64,000 bases of DNA from Asaia bogorensis (lineage in GTDB: Bacteria > Pseudomonadota > Alphaproteobacteria > Acetobacterales > Acetobacteraceae), in the NCBI GenBank assembly GCA_945869965.1, contig CAMBRC010000004.1, positions 1 through 64,000 of the forward strand. Reading direction: 5' to 3'. The notes under the pieces were generated by a model that saw nothing but the letters and a program-made list of their open reading frames with translations, was not told the origin of the DNA and searched no databases. Position numbers and translations under genes: made by a program. Numbering within the stretch: the first letter of the stretch is position 1; every line of letters begins with the position of its first letter. Positions 10,411 through 62,773 of the stretch are shown piece after piece.

Positions 10411-10583
10411 AAAAGGTCTTCTTTTTGTGAACAAAAAGAAGCAAAAAAACTTTATTCGATTTGCGTTCGCCAGCACGGAAGCCTTGAAGTCACCCGTCGT
10501 GACAGAGAACCGCGGTCGAAAACCTTGCCCAGCCCAAAGCGGATAAAGTTTTTTTGCTTCTTTTTGTTCACAAAAAGAAGACT
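10411..10583. repeat. Inward-facing pair of family H hairpin repeats
   Basis: Each unit is a hairpin with arms CTTCTTTTTGT and ACAAAAAGAAG and a 2-nt centre, followed by CAAAAAAACTTTAT. Copy one (hairpin 10418-10441) follows pcaG in sense orientation. Copy two (10557-10580) is inverted and follows, on the minus strand, the stop of the ATPase gene at 10587. Together they form an inverted repeat of about 40-bp arms around some 80 bp of unrelated sequence. Confidence 0.9.
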
Positions 10584-19504: not shown

Positions 19505-19550
19505 GAGCCTTCTTTTTGTGAACAAAAAGAAGCAAAAAAACTTCATCCGT
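19505..19550 (+). repeat. Family H hairpin repeat, single copy
   Basis: The hairpin (19509-19532, arms CTTCTTTTTGT and ACAAAAAGAAG) follows the permease stop by 8 nt in sense orientation, with the usual CAAAAAAACTTCATCC tail. No inverted partner lies within 200 bp. Confidence 0.85.
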
Positions 19551-19687
19551 TCGCCCTCGTAGGGTGAAATGCGCTTTGGCATTCCACCATTTCTCCCCCC
19601 CACCGTCATCCTGAGCAAAGCGAAGGACCCACGCTTTTTCCTTCCGCCATTCTCCGTAAAAAAACCTCGAAACTTAGATAAATTTCC

Positions 19688-19716
19688 TTGCGCCCTCATT
19701 CTCCGTCTGTTAGTAT
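19688..19716 (+). promoter_or_regulatory. Promoter of small-protein gene family, copy A
   Basis: TTGCGC (19688-19693), a 17-nt spacer and TAGTAT (19711-19716) form a near-consensus sigma-70 promoter. The -10 box ends 4 nt before the ATG at 19721, so any transcript would be leaderless. Copies B and C show the same spacing. Confidence 0.5.
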
Positions 19717-19720
19717 GCCG

Positions 19721-20212
19721 ATGAATTAACGAGCAACCAACCCCTCTGGGCGCCCTACGCGCTCCCGGCGCCCCTTCGGGGGCAGGTCGGACACGCACGT
19801 CCGCCGCCCTGCACGCCTTGATCGCGGCCATCTTCGCCCGCATTTTCGCCCGCCTGGAACAGATCCTCCTGCTCTGGCAGGCCGGCACCCTTGTCCCGCT
19901 GCCCCCCGCCTCCTGCTTGGCAAAGCCCCCCCGCTCAGCAAAGCCCCCCCGCGTCCTGCCTCCCGCCGTTCACCGCGCCATCAGGCATCCGCGCGCCATC
20001 CCAGCGCCCGCAGCGCTCATCCGCGCGCTCAAACAGACCACCCCTGCCGCGCAACCCCGGCGCGCAACCAGCTTACGCCGCCACCCGCGCCCCAATCCCC
20101 GTCCGCGCCCGCAACCGGCGCATGACCCGCCGCCGGCGCCGCCGTCCCATCCCCACCGAACCTCCCAGCGAGGTTGCACAAGCATGTCCCTATAATTACG
20201 ATATCGTATTAA
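19721..20212 (+). pseudogene. Small-protein family (SLHALI/FGRLEQ), copy A, frameshifted
   Basis: This is a damaged relative of the gene at 61664-62164. The recognisable core (LHALIAAIFARIFARLEQILLLWQAG, read from about 19806) follows the same proline/arginine-rich run and ends with the family tail, here ITISY (stop at 20210-20212). The only ATG (19721) is one nucleotide out of frame with the core, and the tail is in another frame than the core, so at least two frameshifts have occurred. A TTG at 19818 could start a 125-residue remnant. Function is unknown. The following 234 bases before the permease gene hold only a short hairpin. Confidence 0.6.
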
Positions 20213-32209: not shown

Positions 32210-32357
32210 TGGGTTCCCTCTCGCTCGGTCAATGCCGCTCGGCAGATAGTATGTGGGGCGGGCTGGCGGCAGGCAAGGGGTGGGTTGGTTAGTTAATTTT
32301 GATATCGTAACGTTTAGGGCATGCTTGGGCGATGGCGCTTGAGGGGCTGGGCTGGGG

Positions 32358-32756
32358 TCAGTGGGGCGGCGGCAGGCGGACGGCGCGGGCGCGCGACGGG
32401 GCGGTCGGGGTGGGAAAGCAGGCTGCCGCGGTGCGGTGCGGGATGGCGGGAGCGCGCGGGGGGATTCCGGGCGTGGCGGAGTCCCGGCGGGCGTTGCGCG
32501 TGCGGAGCCGGCGGGGTGCCTGGTGCGGCGACGTGGCGCGGGGATGGAAGGTGCGACGCGCGGCGGATTGCGGCAGGGGGAGCGCGTCGGATTGCCACAA
32601 CAGGAGCATCTGCTCCAGGCGGCCGAAGATGCGGGCGAGGCAGGACATGATGAGGGCGTGCAGCGACGGCGGCAGCCAGCCCGAGGCGGAGTCCGCCTGG
32701 ACCGAGGCGCGCAGTGTGCCGACCCGTTCGGCGAGGGTAGCCGGTGAAGTTTCCAT
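32358..32756 (-). CDS. Small-protein family (SLHALI/FGRLEQ), copy B, probably frameshifted at the 3' end
   Basis: The open frame encodes 132 residues. Residues 26-56 (GWLPPSLHALIMSCLARIFGRLEQMLLLWQ) align without gaps with the same positions of the copy at 61664. A proline/arginine-rich run of different sequence follows. The family's C-terminal tail (here NVTIS, coded at 32300-32313) is present in the DNA but in another frame, so the 3' half has probably shifted. The core suggests an amphipathic or membrane-associated helix. No enzyme motif is seen and the function is unknown. The next ATG upstream (32760) is in another frame. Confidence 0.55.
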   Translation of the reverse strand: METSPATLAERVGTLRASVQADSASGWLPPSLHALIMSCLARIFGRLEQMLLLWQSDALPLPQSAARRTFHPRATSPHQAPRRLRTRNARRDSATPGIPPRAPAIPHRTAAACFPTPTAPSRARAVRLPPPH

Positions 32757-32762
32757 GCATCG

Positions 32763-32791
32763 TATCTAACAGATGTTTGTTAGATATGCAA
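32763..32791 (-). promoter_or_regulatory. Promoter with overlapping dyad, small-protein copy B
   Basis: On the minus strand, TTGCAT (32791-32786), a 17-nt spacer and TAGATA (32768-32763) form a promoter. A perfect dyad, TATCTAACA and TGTTAGATA with a 6-nt centre (32763-32786), covers the -10 box and spacer. The start codon at 32756 lies where transcription should begin, so the mRNA would be leaderless and could be repressed by a protein bound to the dyad. Confidence 0.5.
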
Positions 32792-32907: not shown

Positions 32908-32950
32908 GGATGAAGTTTTTTTGCTTCTTTTTGTTCACAAAAAGAAGGCT
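32908..32950 (-). repeat. Family H hairpin repeat, single copy
   Basis: The hairpin (32924-32947) lies 6 nt after the stop of the acyl-CoA dehydrogenase at 32953, in that gene's sense orientation, followed by the CAAAAAAACTTCATCC tail. It has no nearby inverted partner. Confidence 0.85.
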
Positions 32951-60662: not shown

Positions 60663-61481
60663 ATGGGTGACCGCTTCGTGTGGGGCAAGATTATCGGCGG
60701 GGTGGCCGGCTTCGCCATCGGTGGCCCGGTTGGCGCAATCGCCGGCGTCGCACTCGGCCACGCGGCCGATAGCGGCGGCGCCGGCCGTATCGGCATAGCC
60801 GGGCGCAACGCCGCCGCCGGCCTGTTCGCCCCGTCGGGCCCGAGCGGCCGGACCTCCCCCTTTGCCGCCCCCAAAGCACTCGGCCGCGAACAGGTCTTCG
60901 CCATCGGCGTGGTGGTCATCTCGGCCAAGCTCGCCAAATGCGACGGCCCGGTGAACCGGGCGGAAATCGACGAGTTCAAGCGCCACTTCCGCGTCCCGGC
61001 AACCGCCGCGCGCGACGTCGGCCGGCTGTTCGACCAGGCCCGCGAAAGCCCCGAAAGCGCCGATGGCTATGCCTTGCACATGGGCGAGGCCTTCAGCGAC
61101 AACCTCGGCGTGCTCGATGACGTGCTCGCCGCCCTGTTCACCATCGCCCGTGCCGACAAGCCGCTGAACGGCGCCGAACAGGCCTTCCTGGAAGGCATCT
61201 GGCGCAATTTCGGCCTCGGCCAGGACTCCTGGGCGCGGGCCATCGGCCGCACCCGCCCCACCCGCGCCGTGCCGGAAGACGACCCCTACGCCGTCCTCGG
61301 CGTCCCCCCGGACATCGACGACAACGCCCTGCGCGCCGCCTGGCGCCAGCTGATGCGCGAAAACCACCCGGACACCCTGGCCAGCCGCGGCGTCCCCGCC
61401 GAATTCATCGCCCGCGCCAGCGACAAAGTGGCCAAAATCAACGCCGCCTGGGACATCATCAAGCGGCGGCGCGGGCTTTAG
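60663..61481 (+). CDS. DjlA-like protein with TerB and DnaJ domains
   Basis: The 272-residue protein has a glycine-rich hydrophobic N-terminus (IIGGVAGFAIGGPVGAIAGVALG, probably membrane-inserted), a TerB-like helical middle (VFAIGVVVISAKLAKCDGPVNRAEI), and a C-terminal J domain with the HPD triad (235-237) that would stimulate a DnaK ATPase. This is the DjlA order. The ATG at 60663 gives a start close to the hydrophobic segment. A family H hairpin follows 14 nt after the stop. Confidence 0.85.
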   Translation: MGDRFVWGKIIGGVAGFAIGGPVGAIAGVALGHAADSGGAGRIGIAGRNAAAGLFAPSGPSGRTSPFAAPKALGREQVFAIGVVVISAKLAKCDGPVNRAEIDEFKRHFRVPATAARDVGRLFDQARESPESADGYALHMGEAFSDNLGVLDDVLAALFTIARADKPLNGAEQAFLEGIWRNFGLGQDSWARAIGRTRPTRAVPEDDPYAVLGVPPDIDDNALRAAWRQLMRENHPDTLASRGVPAEFIARASDKVAKINAAWDIIKRRRGL

Positions 61482-61489
61482 GCAAGCGA

Positions 61490-61538
61490 GCAAGCCTTCT
61501 TTTTGTGAACAAAAAGAAGCAAAAAAACTTTATCCATC
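61490..61538 (+). repeat. Family H hairpin repeat, single copy
   Basis: The hairpin (61496-61519) follows the DjlA-like gene in sense orientation with the CAAAAAAACTTTATCC tail. It lies about 110 bp upstream of the promoter of small-protein copy C, as the variant pair at 45258 does for carA. Confidence 0.87.
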
Positions 61539-61626
61539 AGACTCGTAGGTCGGATAAGTGCCGCGCCATCCGATTCCTGCCCGCGGCCGGGTGGAAATAT
61601 TTTTTCCGCAATACGCCAATTTTTCC

Positions 61627-61655
61627 TTGTTATCCCACCGTCTGTCCTATATTCT
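61627..61655 (+). promoter_or_regulatory. Promoter of small-protein gene, copy C
   Basis: TTGTTA (61627-61632), a 17-nt spacer and TATTCT (61650-61655) resemble a sigma-70 promoter; TATATT two bases upstream is an alternative -10. The ATG at 61664 follows by 8 nt with no Shine-Dalgarno, so the mRNA would be leaderless. The stretch GTGGAAATATTTTTTCC and ACGCCAA just upstream (61591-61619) resembles the sequence before the carA -35 box. Confidence 0.45.
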
Positions 61656-61663
61656 ATCCACAC

Positions 61664-62164
61664 ATGTCAATCCAACCACCCCCGCTGGCCACCCGCTTCG
61701 CCAGCCTCCACGCCACCATCGCAGCCTGCCCCTACCGGGGTTGGCTGCCCCGGTCTCTGCACGCCCTGATTTTGGCCGCCCTCGCGCGCGTCTTCGGCCG
61801 TCTGGAACAACTTCTCCTGCTCTGGCAAGCAGGCCAGCTCCCCACCCCAAAATCCCGTCCTCCCGAACGACGTGAAGGACCCACGCTTCCTTCCTCCCCC
61901 CGCCAGCCCAAAGCCACCGGGATCACGCGCCGTGCCCACACCCGCCACAACGCCACCTGCCACAGCGCCGCCCGCGCGCCCTTTGGCTTGGCAGCCATAC
62001 CCGCGTCCAACCCCAGCGCCGCGCCATCCGCCGCCATCAAACCCGGCCCCCATTCGCGCCCCGCCCCCATCCGCGCCCCAGCCGGCCGATGTCCAAGCCC
62101 CCGCCAAAAGCGCCCCATCGCGGGGACGCCGATCCGCGCCTATATTGTTACGATATCGAATTAA
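61664..62164 (+). CDS. Small hypothetical protein (SLHALI/FGRLEQ family), intact copy C
   Basis: The 166-residue protein belongs to no family I can name. Its core at residues 26-56 (WLPRSLHALILAALARVFGRLEQLLLLWQ) could form a long amphipathic or membrane-associated helix. After LPTP comes a basic, proline- and alanine-rich low-complexity stretch, and the protein ends YIVTISN. Core and terminal VTIS recur in the copies at 19721 and 32358, but only here are promoter, start, core and tail in one frame, so this is the likely functional member. The low-complexity region is so GC-rich that all frames look alike, so the model rests on the conserved ends. rnpB follows within 50 bp. Confidence 0.6.
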   Translation: MSIQPPPLATRFASLHATIAACPYRGWLPRSLHALILAALARVFGRLEQLLLLWQAGQLPTPKSRPPERREGPTLPSSPRQPKATGITRRAHTRHNATCHSAARAPFGLAAIPASNPSAAPSAAIKPGPHSRPAPIRAPAGRCPSPRQKRPIAGTPIRAYIVTISN

Positions 62165-62180
62165 CTAACCACGCCATCCC

Positions 62181-62209
62181 TTGACGCCCCCAACCGAACG
62201 GCGCATCTC
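62181..62209 (+). promoter_or_regulatory. Probable rnpB promoter
   Basis: TTGACG (62181-62186) and a weak CATCTC -10 (62204-62209) are 17 nt apart and end a few bases before the expected 5' end of the RNA. The -10 match is poor; the spacing and position support it. Confidence 0.45.
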
Positions 62210-62212
62210 CGG

Positions 62213-62626
62213 CCCCTGCCAGACGGCTGGACGGCCGCTGCCGGGGGCAACCCCGGTGGAGGAAAGTCCGGGCTCCACGGAAATACGGTGCCGGCTAACC
62301 GCCGGCGGGGGCGACCCCAGGGAAAGTGCCACAGAAAACAAACCTCCCGCGCAAGGGCTCGCCCCCCGCGGGCAAGGGCGAAACGGTGCGGTAAGAGCGC
62401 ACCGCGCCCCTGGCAACAGGGGCGGCAGGGCAAACCCCACCGGGAGCAAGACCGAATAGGGGCGACCGGCGTGGTGCCAAAAGGCACGGACGCAGGGGCA
62501 TTTCCGCCCCGCCGCCCGGGTTGGTCGCGCGAGGCGCGCAGCAATGCGCGTCCCAGAGGAATGGCCGTCCAACTGCCCGCAAGGGCGGCGGACAGAACCC
62601 GGCTTACAGGCCGTCTGGCAGACTGG
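62213..62626 (+). ncRNA. rnpB: RNase P RNA, bacterial type A
   Basis: This is the catalytic RNA that removes 5' leaders from tRNA precursors. The closing P1 helix is perfect: CTGCCAGACGGC (62216-62227) with GCCGTCTGGCAG (62610-62621). The universal P4 strands are present: GAGGAAAGTCCGGGCTCC (62259-62276) near the 5' end and ACAGAACCCGGCTTACAG (62592-62609) near the 3' end, along with the loop segment CCCAGGGAAAGTGCCACAGA (62318-62337). The length of about 410 nt is normal for alphaproteobacteria. Exact ends are estimated from P1. It lies upstream of mraZ, a common alphaproteobacterial order. Confidence 0.95.
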
Positions 62627-62773
62627 CCTAAATAAAGCGAGCGGCCCTAAATTTAAGTTGACACAACCCGACTCGCCGTTGCCAACATGTTCTCGCAACC
62701 CGACGCAAAGGCTTGAATCCGCACTGAATCCACTTCCGTCACAGCCCGCCCCGCATAGCGCGACGCGCCTCTG

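Follow-up and report, generated by a model that had tools for sequence, protein, structure and literature searches.

The window analysed here comprises the first 64,000 nt of contig CAMBRC010000004.1 of Asaia bogorensis (Acetobacteraceae) and contains three copies of a small gene, which are named below by their positions 61664, 32358 and 19721. The 61664 copy lies on the forward strand, and its open reading frame (61664–62164, 166 aa) begins with a conserved core (residues 1–66, 61664–61861). It is preceded by a -35 box TTGTTA (61627–61632), at the spacing of 17 that recurs across the family, and by a -10 box TATTCT (61650–61655) that stands 8 nt before the ATG, which suggests a leaderless start. 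At the end of the frame lies a 3' DNA motif, ATTGTTACGATATCGAATTAA (62144–62164). The rnpB gene, encoding the RNase P RNA (62219–62622), follows directly on the 3' side, and a TTGACG box stands at 62181, 16 nt past the end of the reading frame.

The 32358 copy is encoded on the reverse strand (32358–32756, 132 aa) and shares the core of the 61664 copy, the residues SLHALI beginning at position 30 in both proteins. Its -35 box TTGCAT (32786–32791) and -10 box TAGATA (32763–32768, 6 nt before the ATG) were read from the sequence, as were those of the other copies, and its 3' DNA motif (32295–32315) is found past the stop codon and out of the core frame. The 19721 copy, again on the forward strand, has the boxes TTGCGC (19688–19693) and TAGTAT (19711–19716), a reading frame at 19725–20195 with the core in frame from 19788, and a 3' motif at 20192–20212 that is likewise out of the core frame. 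When the single core sequence was searched against the own genome, this copy matched with 63% identity over residues 25–62 (E 2.5e-8). It is 12 nt shorter near the core start than the corresponding copy (L150) of the sister species G006, and since ATT stands at the start position where the sister species has ATG, the 19721 copy may be silent. The sequence-only reading of the window had proposed a family of three small proteins, two of them with the core at matching residue positions; the reading frames and the core bear this out for the window, and the count of three does not hold for the genome, as described below. The family-specific promoter, the leaderless start, the insertion history and the two-domain relatives go beyond what that reading had noticed.

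The core is about 60 residues long and is predicted by AlphaFold2 to form two helices (residues 8–21 and 30–55; mean pLDDT 76.8, pTM 0.41). A Foldseek search of the PDB with this model of moderate confidence gave no match at E<=10, and a profile search of the PDB gave none either (best E 0.21). The 61664 protein has no match above the cut-off in Pfam, NCBIfam, PHROGs or PADLOC, and the 32358 protein, searched against PHROGs only, has none there. Matches to curated families were all below threshold (DUF6103, E 0.18; lasso B2, E 0.2; MmdC, E 2.7), and no description of the family was found in the titles and abstract openings of the literature searched. The gene family is undescribed, and the earlier statement that it could not be placed in a known family stands.

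Between the core and the 3' motif lies a variable middle that had been described as basic and proline-rich. Its composition is 52% C and 9.5% T; arginine and lysine together make up 20% of residues when the middle is read in the core frame, and 18% in either other frame. The middle is indeed rich in P, R and A, and this is mostly a matter of base composition.

In the genome from which the window comes (G000), 124 loci of the family were detected, 69 of a short form like the window copies and 55 carrying a second conserved domain. The total was obtained by merging 81 of the 87 core matches, 12 of which lie beside a domain-2 match, with 55 domain-2 matches, six weak core matches without domain 2 (E 0.385–1.21) having been dropped before counting. 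The 87 matches come from a search with the 66-residue core at E<=10, in which the best non-self match had an E of 3.6e-21 and none of the 87 contained an internal stop. The closest paralogues of the 61664 copy are 65–67% identical to it, and for the contig of the window (C4) the core and domain-2 lists show no family copies other than the three short ones. By estimate (69 x 0.53 kb plus 55 x 0.7 kb), the 124 loci occupy about 1.6% of the 4.74 Mb genome.

Homologues, which the sequence-only reading had left to be sought, were found in other genomes. All eight other genomes of the genus have core matches, with 7 to 55 per genome. Counting the own genome, the core was positive in 15 of the 100 genomes searched (7 of 92 genera), and domain 2 in 31 of the 150 genomes of a draw from the bacterial family (23 of 102 genera), with at least 41 matches in one of them. 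In a draw of 385 genomes from the class, scored on at most 16 candidates per genome, the own genome was the only positive; the negatives of this draw include at least four other members of the bacterial family and are weak evidence of absence.

The two-domain proteins are hypothetical proteins of Acetobacteraceae, recognisable by the motif LRPLCRMLG within the domain-2 consensus ...QLxxLLAxPxxxAFLAAAPQAGRxLRPLCRMLGI.... For these no curated family was found, and in Pfam, NCBIfam, PHROGs and PADLOC they have no match above the cut-off. Their N-terminal domain is related to the core (single-sequence core search: C84 copy, E 2.5e-6; G028, E 4.4e-7); the lower E-values for these relatives were obtained with an iterated profile of which they are themselves part. 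They share with the short form the same 3' motif, and they differ from it in the second domain, which the short form lacks, and in a stop codon placed about 20–40 nt before the motif. Judged by these similarities, the short form and the two-domain Acetobacteraceae proteins are members of the same superfamily.

The substitution rates of the core were compared in 20 orthologue pairs between G000 and G006. In these pairs 8.8% of core sites differ, and dN/dS is 0.49 in frame against 0.81 and 1.84 in the shifted frames, with the proviso that the pairs were picked for a core identity of >=0.79, which lowers dN. Five faster pairs, run apart, gave 0.60 in frame against 0.75 and 1.57; the pairs L127/L017 and L132/L059 were excluded, as they resemble replaced occupants. 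All three indels in the core of the 20 pairs are multiples of three. The middle of the same pairs is 27% divergent with a dN/dS of 0.83, and 28 of its 48 indels are multiples of three. Because this exceeds the third expected by chance, the frame of the middle is weakly kept over short times, though not over long ones. These rates show that the core is under purifying selection at the protein level and that the middle is nearly free to change. The earlier proposal of a conserved helical core is supported, two helices being predicted and synonymous change being in excess in its own frame. Of the two findings that would have spoken against it, a lack of homologues elsewhere and a lack of such an excess, neither was obtained. 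Chance or low complexity as the source of the core was considered and is ruled out by the core matches and the in-frame selection.

Synonymous divergence in the core is itself low (pS 0.136, against 0.222 in 26 flanking gene fragments, which were accepted only at a pN/pS below 0.5). In the short-copy cores of G000 and G004 the leucine codons are position-specific, with CTG:CTC ratios of 34:2 and 1:52 at two columns; such specificity is not clearly present in the two-domain relatives. The low pS and the codon preference, for instance at 61751–61843, could reflect shared ancestry, expression-linked codon bias or constraint at the nucleotide level.

The typical unit has a sigma-70-like promoter of the form TTG-17-TAnnnT, with the -10 box ending 6–8 nt before the ATG. 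A scan of 67 short copies found this geometry in 46, whereas 1340 mononucleotide shuffles showed it in 77; in 43 of the 46 the spacing is 17, and in 43 of the 46 the distance from the -10 box to the ATG is 6–8 nt. A strict pattern, TTG-N14-GTTAGTTANNAT, has 30 matches in the genome and none in the reversed control. All 30 lie within 300 bp of a core match, and the strict form accounts for only 30 of the 69 short copies. Among the two-domain relatives, 12 of the 19 distinct loci with a proposed start show leaderless geometry in other letters, a count for which the script picked the best ATG and which has no control. Because the -10 box ends 6–8 nt before the ATG, the family gene is probably leaderless, with a transcript starting at or beside the ATG.

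These observations bear on whether the short copies are relics, that is, decayed two-domain copies that have lost domain 2 and are now drifting. The absence of domain 2, the nearly neutral middle and the ATT at the start of the 19721 copy would fit such a decay. Drifting copies would not be expected to retain the spacing between the -10 box and the ATG, and both the promoter geometry in 46 of the 67 copies and the purifying selection on the core between species speak against it, so that we hold this explanation to be very improbable.

The 3' motif has a consensus of about TTRTTMCGWTATCRWAACA and was placed by a search between +330 and +560 only. Of 67 short copies, 56 have a tail that could be placed; in these the motif follows the core start at a distance of 447 +/- 20 nt (range 414–516) and falls in phases 0, 1 and 2 relative to the core in 21, 19 and 16 copies, respectively. 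In most two-domain loci, those of other genera included, it stands about 20–40 nt past the stop codon; at some, such as L198, it was not seen. Because the phase varies and the motif lies after the stop codon in the two-domain relatives, the V/I-TIS "tail" is best read as a DNA motif translated in whichever phase it happens to fall, and the claim of a conserved C-terminal peptide has to be given up. The accompanying remark that the DNA of the tail is kept even where the frame is lost was correct. The motif is palindromic in look; its halves do not covary, pairing in 142 tails exceeding the shuffled mean beyond chance at none of 8 pairs (142 of 192 rows were left after an anchor score and the removal of duplicates, including 31 of 38 two-domain rows). 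Twelve of 13 exact motif sites in the genome lie within 700 bp of a family match, as do 34 of 66 one-mismatch sites among the matches listed. Because the remaining 32 exceed the whole-genome reversed control of 17, either the motif also occurs elsewhere or copies of the family were missed.

The distance from the core start to the 3' motif varies little although the reading frame is not kept, which raises the alternative that the conserved entity is a nucleic acid, either an RNA or a DNA site, and that the open reading frame arises for the most part from the C-rich composition. Among 56 copies, the three frames leave the middle open in 41, 35 and 34, respectively; this, the position-specific leucine codons of the core and the conservation of the tail as DNA would all fit such an alternative. 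It does not agree with a core that evolves as protein in one frame, and RNA-level searches gave it no help: 32 sequences gave no consensus RNA structure over the first 250 nt (-0.08 kcal/mol), the 3' palindrome lacks covariation, and Rfam matched nothing in 61400–62700 except rnpB. The codon preference is not common to the two-domain relatives and may be plain shared ancestry. A nucleic acid as the conserved entity is considered improbable.

The neighbours of 63 short copies, with strands taken from a home-made codon-usage gene call, are both on the strand of the copy in 38 cases, both on the opposite strand in 4 and mixed in 12, and in 9 cases a neighbour was undetermined. Upstream of the window copies lies a 22-bp hairpin repeat, TTCTTTTTGTGAACAAAAAGAA, at 61497–61518 (+), 32925–32946 (-) and 19510–19531 (+), which is associated with the units and probably a separate element. 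Of 67 short copies, 45 have it upstream and none has it downstream; of 20 two-domain copies, 4 have it upstream. With at most two mismatches it has 445 forward and 465 reverse matches (reversed control 0), which, as the repeat is nearly palindromic, correspond to about 450 places in G000, and it often occurs as inverted pairs about 90–150 bp apart in a REPIN-like arrangement. Within the window it is found at 10419, 10558, 17489, 17622, 19510, 32925, 36656, 36785, 50642, 58767 and 61497. The repeat was considered as a part of the unit and set aside, given that only 4 of 20 two-domain copies have it and that it occupies some 450 places genome-wide. Dispersed repeats of about 30 bp (..GAAGGACCCACGCTT..) are also alike at 61860–61894, in the middle of the 61664 copy, and at 19604–19636, upstream of the 19721 copy, and translations resembling this repeat are found in the middle of several other family copies.

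Synteny in the related genomes was compared, as the sequence-only reading had suggested, and the three window copies have their sites in common with one sister species, G006, and are absent from five or six of the eight other congeners. The 61664 copy lies between djlA and rnpB in G000 and G006, where the gap measures 737 and 720 nt, respectively; in G001, G002, G003, G005, G007 and G008 the gap is 36–133 nt and the copy is absent (G004 not judged). In G000 and G006 two acyl-CoA dehydrogenase genes flank the 32358 copy, which is absent in G001, G003, G004, G005 and G007 (G002 and G008 not judged). The 19721 copy is present in G000 and G006 and absent in G001, G002, G003, G005, G007 and G008, while in G004 the gene end was not found. 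Each window copy is an insert between genes that stand in other congeners without it. At the 61664 site the extra stretch is about 700 nt, the upstream hairpin repeat included. Comparing filled with empty sites by eye, target-site duplications were not seen, the ends being blurred by other repeats.

Beyond the window, sites were compared across fragmented assemblies. A site in common with a short copy of G000 was found for 28 of the 31 G006 copies fetched, 8 of the 30 from G004 and none of the 7 from G008, these being parts of the 45, 55 and 36 core matches of the three genomes; the 28 comprise 27 and the 19721 site, and at contig ends only one flank was comparable. Five of the 8 G004 sites matched on both flanks, and flanking DNA at the 8 sites is 79–91% identical. 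At none of the 8 are the two occupants nearest relatives, the partner ranking 5th to 62nd among the G000 copies. For 22 of 30 G004 copies the best match is another copy of G004, and on a tree of 104 cores the species labels need 15 changes, against 28–37 in 200 shuffles. In the alignments of two G004 sites and one G006 site (L132/L059) the neighbouring genes match and the gaps are unlike; L164/L029, L177/L069 and L132/L059 are each one intergenic site with differing occupants between species. The site sharing, the mismatch of occupants and the clustering by species mean that gain, loss or exchange of copies went on after the separation of these species. For each of the G006 copies L142 and L146, the upstream and the downstream flank point to different G000 copy sites (L061/L030 and L013/L072), a pattern that recombination between copies would leave, or else an error in assembly.

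That promoter, gene and 3' motif move together as one piece is best supported by pairs of copies in G028, a genome of another genus. Near-unit HSPs there are 81–90% identical and extend from roughly the -35 box to roughly the 3' motif, and the flanks of 8 copies are unlike by eye. In some pairs the shared sequence reaches about 50 nt further upstream of the -35 box, and in one pair this stretch holds a shared repeat of about 30 bp. No recent movement is seen among the copies fetched from G000, whose best long DNA match is about 86%, and none of the best 45 of 1914 G000 HSPs is a long patch of >90% identity that would point to gene conversion. Inverted repeats joining the ends of the unit (arms >=10) were found in neither the two window copies nor the two G028 copies searched, and profile searches of the unit proteins gave no transposase-like domain. 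A phage, plasmid or defence origin was also considered, and the searches gave it no support: PHROGs and PADLOC had no match, plasmids gave a single partial core match (E 1e-2, inside a LysR gene) and none to domain 2, viral contigs gave no family match, and phage records, searched with domain 2 only, gave none.

A good part of these observations would also suit a host gene family, namely a regulon of small nucleic-acid-binding or regulatory proteins, duplicated, kept for use and rarely recombining. The purifying selection on the core, the absence of internal stops in 87 of 87 core matches, the 38 copies with both neighbours on their own strand against 4 with both opposite, and a synonymous divergence below that of the flanking fragments, as in highly expressed genes, are what such a family would show; the strict promoter, with its GTTAGTTA motif on the -10 box, is confined to family members (30 of 30) and is regulon-like. 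Host function is still compatible with sites that turn over between species of one genus, although this turnover counts against the explanation. Further points against it are the distant relatives that occupy all 8 shared G004 sites, the species clustering with its within-G004 best matches, and the G028 copies, which have little in common beyond the stretch from promoter to 3' motif. We regard a host family as the main rival explanation, possible but unlikely.

We lean, by no great degree, towards a dispersing gene unit that is copied as a discrete piece and depends on an agent acting in trans. Such a unit would measure about 0.55 kb, or about 0.7 kb where the second domain is present, and comprise its own promoter, a leaderless gene transcribed from the ATG and a 3' boundary motif. 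The trans agent, which has no recognisable gene in the unit, would recognise the ends and copy the unit into intergenic gaps, and selection would afterwards keep those copies that run with their neighbours. The product would be a small protein of two helices that ends in a basic, flexible tail; least certain is that it acts on nucleic acid, perhaps on the promoter or ends of its own family. Nucleic-acid binding is a guess from the tail, most of whose basic character follows from base composition. Neither a simple mobile element nor a simple regulon sits well with three observations: terminal repeats are lacking, the ends are blurred at the window sites, and the 3' motif is also found at a distance from the copies detected.

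The dispersing unit can be compared with known systems. REPIN/RAYT systems and MITEs reach high copy number between genes, carry no transposase in the unit and differ in their sites between relatives. The family unit is likewise multicopy, intergenic, transposase-less and variable in its sites, including presence or absence between relatives with the same neighbours, as for a MITE; unlike these elements, it carries a promoter of its own and codes for a protein that is under selection. It also lacks the terminal inverted repeats of a MITE (two window and two G028 copies, arms >=10), and its 3' palindrome lacks the covarying hairpin of a REPIN. In integron gene cassettes a single gene precedes an imperfectly palindromic 3' site. 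By this description they resemble the family, which is one gene followed by a palindromic-looking site; by description, too, they are set apart from it, since the family units are dispersed singly, have their own promoter and end in a palindrome that does not covary. A stronger proposal, which we put forward only tentatively and think rather doubtful as a whole, is a new class of mobile unit made of promoter, leaderless gene and 3' boundary motif, without terminal inverted repeats or a recognisable transposase, that would spread and replace its like at preferred intergenic sites, its own protein or a two-domain relative recognising the promoter or the 3' motif.

A mobile unit would be a protein-coding element that falls outside the element classes compared here; a host family would be a promoter-defined set of many probably leaderless genes. 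In either case the filled and empty sites, with their orthologous or replaced occupants, provide a natural experiment on gene copying without a visible transposase.
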